DNA from: an uncultured Lachnospiraceae bacterium | GTDB lineage: Bacteria; Bacillota; Clostridia; Lachnospirales; Lachnospiraceae | DNA: 64,000 nt | Direction: 5' to 3' | NCBI GenBank assembly: GCA_949878435.1 | Contig: CATLAK010000005.1 | Location: 62,001 to 126,000, forward strand | Part shown: piece by piece, positions 2,898-54,999 of the stretch | Position numbering within the stretch: the stretch's first letter is position 1 | Layout: the number at the start of each line of letters is the position of its first letter | Made by a program: the position numbers and the translations under genes | Notes under the pieces: model-generated | Database searches by the model: none | What the model saw: the letters and a program-made list of their open reading frames with translations, nothing else | Told to the model about the DNA's origin: nothing

Positions 2898-3195
2898 GGG
2901 AAGGACGGCAGGAAGGACAGGGATGATTGGAGCAGCCGGCAGTGTGTATTGGGTTTCAAGGCTCGTCTTCAAATCGGATTTCACTAACAGAATGTGTGTA
3001 GGTGTTTCAAGTCGGTCGGGTCGGAGCCAAGACGGCATCCGTGCCGTTTGGCTCCTAAAATCGCCATCCATGGCGATTTTGCCCTGGTCTTTCCAACATT
3101 CTGTAAGTGAAATTGCCGATTTTCGCCAGAGCCTTGAAACCCAATACACACTGCCGGCTGCTCCAATCATCTCTGTCCTTCCTGCCGTCCTTCCC
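2898..3195. repeat. Long palindromic element, copy A (67-bp arms, 164-nt core)
   Basis: The left arm 2898-2964 and right arm 3129-3195 are inverted repeats of each other over 67 bp with one transition. The core 2965-3128 begins with AAATCGGATTTCACTAACAG and ends with its near complement (CTGTAAGTGAAATTGCCGAT). Inside are two hairpins: 3023-3055 (GGAGCCAA/TTGGCTCC with an inner ACGGCA/TGCCGT stem) and 3057-3080 (AAAATCGCCA/TGGCGATTTT, loop TCCA). The core recurs at 20144-20308 and 54677-54839, while the arms do not. No protein is supported: open frames here read the same peptide on both strands because the DNA is palindromic. With 3222-3272 it fills most of the 511-bp gap between genes. Confidence 0.9.
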
Positions 3196-19942: not shown

Positions 19943-20043
19943 AAACGCCTCTTTTCCACAAATTTCTTAAGAATTATACCACAATCGCTTTTCTTTGTAT
20001 AGAAAGAGGTTGGCTTTCTTTCAATCGAAATAGGGCTGTGATA

Positions 20044-20408
20044 GGAGGAGGGCAGTATAAGTGGACGGATGGCTTGGTCAGGACGGCGCAGGCGGGGAAC
20101 AGGGGACGGCACAGCGGAAGGCGCATCATCTCTTTTCCAGTCTCCTCTTAAAATCGGATTTCACTAACAGAATGTGTTTATGTGTTTCAAGGCGGTCGGG
20201 TCGAAGTCATGGCGGCATCCATGCCGCTTGACTCCTAAAATCGCCCTCCATGGCGATTTTACCCTAGGGACTTAACATTCTGTAAGTGAAATTGCCGATT
20301 TTTCGCAAAGACTGGAAAAGAGATGATGCGCCTTCCGCTGTGCCATCCCCTGTTCCCCGCCTGCGCCGTCCTGACCAAGCCATCCGTCCACTTATACTGC
20401 CCTCCTCC
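20044..20408. repeat. Long palindromic element, copy B (100-bp arms, 165-nt core)
   Basis: Arms 20044-20143 and 20309-20408 are inverted repeats over 100 bp with only one transition that I can find. The core 20144-20308 starts AAAATCGGATTTCACTAACA and closes with CTGTAAGTGAAATTGCCGAT, with inner hairpins AGTCATGGCGGCA/TGCCGCTTGACT and AAAATCGCC/GGCGATTTT. The core matches copies A and C in order, length and orientation. The arms share only the innermost dozen bases with copy C (CCAGTCT/AGACTGG). With the terminator at 20432-20459 it fills the 528-bp gap between genes. No coding sequence is supported inside. Confidence 0.92.
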
Positions 20409-20431
20409 CCTTACAGGCTAAACTCGTTACG

Positions 20432-22402: not shown

Positions 22403-22423
22403 ATATTTCTCCTTTAAATTTCC

Positions 22424-22593
22424 AATGTCATTAAGTTTAGAGGGGAGCGCGTGCAGGACAGCAGTGACACGGAGCGGAGAGCGGATCAGGTACAGGGGAA
22501 GCGATTGTATATACGCTCCCCCTGTACCTGGTTCGCTCTCCGCTCCGTGTCACTGCTGTCCTGCACGCGCTCCCCTCTGAACTTAATGACATT
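22424..22593. repeat. Coreless long hairpin (80-bp arms, 10-nt loop), element E
   Basis: Arms 22424-22503 and 22514-22593 are inverted repeats, 76 of 80 positions matching, all four differences being transitions; the loop is ATTGTATATA. The arm shares GGTACAGGGGA(A)GCG and GGACAGC words with the arm of copy C (54603) but there is no conserved core. It lies 27 bp after the stop of the DUF1700-like gene's upstream neighbour region and directly before the GNAT gene start, in the same inter-gene position as the other elements. Confidence 0.9.
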
Positions 22594-22620
22594 GCTTCCC
22601 GCCTAGTCCTCGGGCAGTTT

Positions 22621-50787: not shown

Positions 50788-50997
50788 CGTTACAGTTCAA
50801 ACCATACGGGGCGGGATAAGATAAGGACAGGGAGCGATACGGCATCCGGGGCGACGCCTACTTTATCTTTGCAAGGCTCTGGCGAAAAATCGGCAATTTC
50901 ACTTACAGAATGTGGAAATGCCAGGGTGAAATCGCCCTGGATGCCGTATTACCCCCGCCCCTATCTTATCCCGCCCCGCACGGTTTGAATTGTAACG
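50788..50997. repeat. Palindromic element copy D (half core, opposite orientation)
   Basis: Outer arms about 50788-50847 and 50938-50997 are inverted repeats of about 60 nt with several mismatches (CGTTACA...TGTAACG at the tips). The middle holds GGCGAAAAATCGGCAATTTC and ACTTACAGAATGT (50881-50913), the same as the right half of cores A-C but on the opposite strand. A CCAGGG/CCCTGG hairpin follows. The other half of the core is missing. It starts 11 bp after the stop of the transglutaminase gene and fills most of a 412-bp gap. Confidence 0.85.
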
Positions 50998-54500: not shown

Positions 54501-54602
54501 TTCATTTTCCTCTCACGGTCTCTTCGGTCTTATCATTATATGCCAGAAATGGGCTTTAGGCAATGCAGGATTTTGAAAATTATGCTGTCGGCGTAACCGT
54601 TT

Positions 54603-54913
54603 GGCCTGCAAGGGAAGGACAGCTGCTTGAAAAGCGGACCGGTACAGGGGAGCGCATACCATATCATTTCTAGTCTCCTCTCAAAATCGGATTTCACTAA
54701 CAGAATGTGTTTAGGTGTTCCAGGGCGGACGGGTCGGAGTCAGCAGCATCCGTGCCGCGCGACTCCTGAAATCGCCATCCATGGCGATTTCCCCCTAGGA
54801 ATCTAACATTCTGCAAGTGAAATTACCGATTTTTCGCAAAGACTGGAAATGATATGGTATGCGCTCCCCTGTACCGGTCCGCTTTTCAAGCAGCTGTCCT
54901 TCCCTTGCAGACC
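54603..54913. repeat. Long palindromic element, copy C (74-bp arms, 163-nt core)
   Basis: Arms 54603-54676 and 54840-54913 are inverted repeats over 74 bp with two transitions that I see. The core 54677-54839 starts AAAATCGGATTTCACTAACA and closes with CTGCAAGTGAAATTACCGAT. The hairpin GAAATCGCCA/TGGCGATTTC has a G-C pair where A and B have A-T, and GGAGTC/GACTCC replaces GGAGCC/GGCTCC of copy A: paired changes that keep the stems. The element fills most of the 499-bp gap between recQ and the DUF2182 gene. Confidence 0.92.
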
Positions 54914-54999
54914 AAACTCCCTTCCGATATAAAAACCATTGGGAAACTTCATAATCAATGACTCTATGACACAAAAAGAGACCGCTTTTAAAACTATTG

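Follow-up and report, generated by a model that had tools for sequence, protein, structure and literature searches.

TwoAYGGAY (Rfam RF01731) is described, in those parts of the literature available to us, as an RNA alone. Its Rfam type label is 'Cis-reg'; the table of the discovery paper, in the portion accessible, has the entry 'n' for cis-regulatory, and the external stem of the RNA is called 'not well conserved' in the available text of a study of this family (PMC4333381). Among insertion sequences, ISDge4, a member of the ISBst12 group of the IS66 family, has GTAACTGCTCAGCA/GTGACTACTCAGCA as its ends, together with a direct repeat of 8 bp, according to the excerpt available (PMC12898284). 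In yeast, template switching between inverted repeats homogenises the arms and inverts the spacers, the repeats being short and the inverted spacers very short in the accessible part of that work (PMC8604942).

We analysed a 64,000-nucleotide stretch of DNA from an uncultured Lachnospiraceae bacterium (the window), which contains three long palindromes, copies A, B and C. Their cores match the whole TwoAYGGAY model well above its cut-off, and to the RNA as described they add long arms, high copy number and apparent mobility. The GTAACAGTTCAGCC ends and 8-bp duplications seen here resemble the ends and repeat reported for ISDge4, but the elements are a great deal shorter than that insertion sequence, and none was seen to carry a transposase gene. 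With yeast template switching, as partially available to us, they have in common arms made identical and an inverted spacer; here, however, the arms span about 33–200 bp, the spacer is about 165 nt and many sites per genome are involved. In REPINs the ends are conserved and the middle varies, whereas these elements are conserved in the middle and variable in the arms. The likeness to REPINs and other bacterial MITEs (PMC3116915) lies in being non-autonomous, palindromic and of high copy number.

We propose that the palindromes are probably copies of a high-copy, non-coding, transposable-like element with IS66/ISBst12-like ends, a TwoAYGGAY RNA at its centre and arms homogenised by copying. The sequences themselves show many copies, a core with inverted arms, arm families shared between sites, 8-bp target duplications in a few copies, concerted change, core inversion and deletion derivatives. 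The RNA and its proposed link to CsrA are known, and the palindromic, mobile-looking, arm-copying setting appears to be new; no published account of a mobile, self-copying TwoAYGGAY setting was found among the titles and opening lines of abstracts consulted. An RNA family of unproven function thereby gains a natural setting, a mobile-looking palindrome, and a single genome provides dozens of natural replicates for the copying, flipping and deletion of long inverted repeats in bacteria. There is also a warning for draft assemblies: such palindromes break them and may misorient them.

TwoAYGGAY cores and their inverted arms

All three cores in the window are matches to the whole RF01731 covariance model (80.7–84.7 bits; cut-off 43), which bears out the structured RNA suspected in the initial annotation. 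The accompanying statement that no named family resembles the core was wrong, its membership of an Rfam family being an outcome that the annotation had listed in advance as contrary to its claim. As it had also noted, the copies share a conserved core in one orientation. The cores are all on the minus strand and 163–166 nt in length, and the arms directly abut them on both sides (Table 1). The arms measure 66, 108 and 78 bp rather than the 67, 100 and 74 bp first given, and the one or two mismatches claimed per arm pair hold for A (one) and C (two) but not for B (four). AYGGAY occupies both loops of copies A and C, and one loop of copy B reads ATGGAG. An end similar to the possible relic beside copy B is present at the same site in genome G007 and, less clearly, in G021. 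The window further contains a core-less derivative and a decayed copy, the latter not reported by Rfam at its cut-off.

Table 1. Positions of the palindromic copies and remnants in the window
Feature	Position	Strand	Details
Copy A, TwoAYGGAY core	2964..3129	-	RF01731, 84.7 bits, 166 nt
Copy A, 5' (RNA-strand) arm, G/A-rich	3130..3195	-	66 bp, 65/66 matching other arm
Copy A, 3' arm	2898..2963	-	outward alignment of both sides
Copy A, GGA hairpin loop 1, ATGGAT, C-G closed	3066..3071	-	hairpin scan
Copy A, GGA hairpin loop 2, ACGGAT, C-G closed	3037..3042	-	hairpin scan
Copy B, TwoAYGGAY core	20144..20308	-	RF01731, 80.7 bits, 165 nt
Copy B, 5' arm	20309..20416	-	108 bp, 104/108 matching
Copy B, 3' arm	20036..20143	-	outward alignment of both sides
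Copy B, possible remnant of an outer end of the GTAAC-GTTCAGCC type	20409..20431	-	by eye
Copy C, TwoAYGGAY core	54677..54839	-	RF01731, 81.1 bits, 163 nt
Copy C, 5' arm	54840..54917	-	78 bp, 76/78 matching
Copy C, 3' arm	54599..54676	-	outward alignment of both sides
Copy C, outer end GTAACCGTTTGGCC	54593..54606	+	11/14 vs GTAACAGTTCAGCC
Core-less derivative, 10-bp loop between two 81-bp arms	22423..22594	.	95% arm identity with full copy T48
Decayed copy, GTTACAGTTCAAACC-like ends on outer arms, truncated core	50788..50997	.	core by eye

The assembly to which the window belongs (G000; 3.4 Mb in 51 contigs, 86% complete) contains 78 TwoAYGGAY matches, 77 of them over the cut-off. Across the genus, 17 of 37 genomes gave matches, over the cut-off in 16, with numbers ranging from none to at least about 50; this genus-wide pass gave at least 53 for G000, compared with the full count of 78. 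The genomes compared are drafts or metagenome bins, in which palindromes may break or flip on assembly. Contigs C15, C20, C37, C80 and C94 of G007 begin or end within palindromes, so copy counts from draft genomes are probably too low.

Inverted arms of about 33–200 bp abut the core in 75 of the 78 G000 copies (alignment score >30), and outward alignment of the two sides leaves T24, T77 and T78 without arms. When the left side of one copy was aligned with the right side of another (list shift 17), 4 of 78 pairs scored above 30, all of them formed by copies with related arms. The arms have a median length of 91 bp and a median identity of 97.6%, and are perfect in 8 of 75 copies. In G009 and G011, 69 of the 70 copies examined, out of 88 matches listed, are armed. 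Many copies with self-matched arms had been anticipated, and both data sets agree with this.

The arms had been thought to differ almost entirely between copies. This is true of 27 of 74 left arms in G000, for which less than 30% of the length or none is matched in a paralogous arm, but it is not universal: 25 match a paralogue over at least 60% of their length, and 22 over 30–60%. Of the best matches, 23 cover only part of the arm, and every one of these extends to its core end; single-linkage grouping yields groups of 19, 9 and 4 copies.

The cores are of two types, a main type comprising most copies and a TATG type comprising nine copies plus the long copy T16; the TATG type has a similar architecture and AGGAN in its first loop. 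A simple scan showed at least two GGA-loop hairpins in 123 of 148 cores, one in 24 and none in 1, and the loops are spaced 28–30 nt apart in 92 of the 96 cores with exactly two such hairpins. Neighbouring cores no more than 700 bp apart are divergent in 21 of 22 pairs (166 hits in G000, G009 and G011), these counts not being independent, as some loci are common to G009 and G011. The sole non-divergent pair includes an element that is flipped relative to its ortholog. Since paired neighbours are often of different types, they look like separate insertions. In a Treponema bin (Gx481_bin104; L312, L319, L322 and L329), an exact 22-base hairpin of the main core adjoins Rfam Flavo-1 matches, and no TwoAYGGAY match was reported at these hairpin loci.

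Outer ends, target duplications and site histories

Ends of the form GTAACnnTTCAGCC are retained in a minority of elements. The motif GTAACAGTTCAGCC, which was originally derived from these copies, is found at 11/14 or better in 20 of 150 arm ends, compared with 0 of 750 control windows, leaving 130 ends without it at 11/14. T30 and T42 both belong to the group with GTAACAGTTCAGCC ends; the former carries the motif at 14/14 at both ends and TCAAACCG on both flanks, and the latter is flanked by CTTTTATA/CTTTTATG. Exact 8-mer target duplications occur in 4 of 75 copies against 0.3 expected, T52 being off-register and T50 possibly an eroded end, and near matches at 7 of 8 positions are at chance level (4 vs 3.9). 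Ends of this type resemble those of a 1,824-bp IS66-type insertion sequence in G028, which terminates on either side in GTAACTATTCAGCC and shows the duplication AGGAATTA.

No IS66 transposase with matching ends was found in G000 (86% complete), where the one hit lies near a contig end at a locus without such ends, and no IS66 transposase hit was obtained in G011 (99% complete). Given these results, the many ends without the motif and the chance level of near-match duplications, we call the elements IS66-like and do not file them as members of the family. On the strength of their ends and duplications they resemble non-autonomous IS66/ISBst12-type transposons, which an IS66-type transposase would move in trans. 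In line with the earlier suggestion of a mobile element, the element looks mobile, given the number of copies, the presence of arm families at different sites and the 8-bp duplications of a few copies. Carriage by phages or plasmids was considered and rejected, as core B has no match in phage or plasmid collections and viral contigs gave no exact 22-mer match. Absence of SbcCD was likewise rejected as the reason that long palindromes survive, since SbcD scored above its cut-off in 34 of 37 genomes, G000 among them.

Related genomes record the history of several sites. At site D, an element stands at the same place in G009, G000 and G021, with arms that can scarcely be aligned across species but are paired within G000 (77/77) and G009 (81/84); in G011 it appears to have been lost between short direct repeats. 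In G021 site A has no element, and all that G007 shows there is a sequence resembling one arm end. At site B, only the outer ends are retained in G007, and G026 (L174:1024-1490) contains a coreless palindrome of 467 bp that matches itself at 76% over nearly its whole length, with GTAACTGTTCAGCC (a GTAAC end) at one end and a clear 8-bp target duplication, TTCGAAAA. This palindrome is absent from G022, which has a single clean copy of the G026 target. The genus-wide pass over 37 genomes found no TwoAYGGAY match in G026, which raises the possibility of a broader class of palindromic elements.

Other sites show replacement or loss of parts. Where G000 has T52, G007 carries another core, oppositely oriented and set between different arms. 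One G009 site has kept its arms and lost the core, the full element being present there in G011, and the core-less feature of the window parallels this site and looks like a deletion derivative. Some element-free sites look like losses. G011:C41:31560 is a single core with unmatched arms, compared with two elements, G009:C15:40733 and 41133; this arrangement would be consistent with two divergent elements having recombined and a deletion having followed.

The initial annotation had supposed that the arms are made anew, and one form of this idea is that each insertion produces its own arms, the core priming a snap-back copy of the flanking DNA. The 27 arms that match no other arm over 30% of their length are in keeping with such a process, as is the lone stretch like one arm end at site A of G007. 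Arms and flanks differ in composition, however (44% G in the left arm vs 16% G in the left flank), and arms are common to copies at different sites, a few of which have target duplications. The claim is not supported, given these shared arm families and the concerted drift of orthologous arms in place, described below, and we regard snap-back copying as highly improbable.

Concerted change of the arms and inversion of the core

G009 and G011, which are 94% identical at one locus, were compared at 13 orthologous pairs of elements, hand-picked from flank matches, non-exhaustively and in some cases on one flank. One pair was dropped from the counts because its G011 arm no longer pairs. Of the 880 aligned arm positions in the remaining 12 pairs, 60 changed in concert, 45 in a single arm and 30 in other ways, compared with about 0.1 concerted columns expected under independence. 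A further 134 paired gap columns, which include large differences in arm length, were kept out of this evidence; paired multi-base and indel changes do occur in orthologous arms. In the clearest pair (G009:C39:76131 and G011:C12:79738), the arms have diverged by 34% and the cores by 8%, and both arm versions are self-complementary.

If the shared copies are older than the split and their arms have aged independently, the difference between the arms of one copy is expected to be at least as large as that between species. The pooled data for the 12 pairs show otherwise, with an arm divergence of 0.107 between species and 0.054 between the arms within a copy. Pair by pair, the within-copy difference is the smaller in 7 of 12, the larger in 4 and equal in 1. 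The pooled core divergence between species is 0.052, or 0.036 minus one outlier. Ten of the 12 pairs have arms more diverged than the core (paired test p 0.017), and in 2 the core is the more diverged. The concerted columns support the earlier claim that the arms are kept alike by copying, and the arms seem to be homogenised in place, both drifting together. The slower change of the core may reflect selection on its RNA or on recognition of the element.

Paired changes as plentiful as these, and arms that outpace the core in 10 of 12 pairs, could also arise if the arms formed a functional RNA helix, free in sequence, in which selection on the transcript keeps the pairing by compensatory mutations. 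In that case, residual mismatches should lean to G-U on the transcribed strand. The arms contain 70 G-T vs 100 A-C mismatches in G000 and 78 vs 89 in G009 and G011 (148 vs 189 in all), unlike the core stems of 65 main-type copies, with 34 G-U-type mismatches vs 16. T16, T76, T77 and T78 were left out of the core count, and the nine TATG-type cores, counted separately, gave 2 vs 2. The contrast between arms and cores is significant (Fisher p ~0.001), with the caveat that the core structure was predicted on the very alignment counted, and this biases the count towards G-U. With no G-U excess in the arms and an excess in the core stems, copying at the DNA level fits better than RNA selection. The pairing of multi-base and indel changes, the flipping of the core relative to its surroundings and the lack of a promoter excess towards the element (34/142 vs ~32, below) also count against the helix, which we consider unlikely.

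The core is inverted between the same arms in 3 of the 13 ortholog pairs. In one of these, the longest perfect repeat is 33 bp in G009 and 54 bp in G011, so short that an assembler would be expected to resolve the inversion. The G021 core is likewise inverted relative to that of G000 at site B and relative to those of G009 and G000 at site D. Under the copying model, both arm homogenisation and core inversion would result from template switching between the arms (or from conversion or recombination), and the switching may take place when the palindrome folds during replication.

Core inversion in place also bears on the possibility that TwoAYGGAY is a cis-regulatory leader, lying between repeats by chance, as its Rfam label would allow. 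A leader agrees poorly with such flips and with the mixed orientation of the 78 G000 cores relative to neighbouring open frames (by rough gene calls, sense to both in 27, antisense to both in 27 and other in 24), as well as with the 'n' in the available table of the discovery paper. This explanation is barely plausible to us.

Expression and the proposed link to CsrA

A promoter in the left flank driving the RNA was considered and rejected, since sites directed towards the element (score ≥8) were found in 34 of 142 cases, compared with about 32 in shuffled sequences. Promoter-like sites pointing away are present in 62 of 142 right flanks and 47 of 142 left flanks; because such outward sites are commoner than inward ones, many elements may sit upstream of the promoters of neighbouring genes. 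An intrinsic terminator was also rejected: a run of five T within 14 nt past the arm occurs in 2 of 75 copies on the RNA strand and 1 of 75 on the other, compared with 5 of 75 on each strand at a greater distance.

GGA hairpins are the CsrA motif. A proposal of 2014 that connects TwoAYGGAY with CsrA is reportedly the work of Gardner and Eldai. In its available text, TwoAYGGAY is proposed to sequester CsrA (PMC4333381). It has been predicted in print that the two GGA loops bind CsrA, and the sequences described here fit this. A CsrA domain is encoded in 33 of the 37 genomes and was not found in G000, G005, G012 and G018, the assemblies of G000 and G005 being incomplete. With so many genomes carrying CsrA, its presence is uninformative as a correlate of the elements and was set aside. 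G000 and G005 carry 78 and at least 34 TwoAYGGAY matches, respectively. The fliW-csrA flagellar block of G007 (genes assigned by eye) gave no DNA match in these two incomplete assemblies, in a search run without a positive control. More speculatively, and with a small chance of being right, TwoAYGGAY could form the conserved centre of a palindromic, selfish transposon by which dozens of genes for CsrA-decoy RNAs are spread through a genome, each within a shell of self-copying, drifting arms, so that a mobile element would tune a global regulator of its host.

The 5' arm on the RNA strand is purine-rich in 74 of 74 G000 copies, with more G than C in 72; this G-over-C bias is weaker in G009 and G011 (53 of 64).
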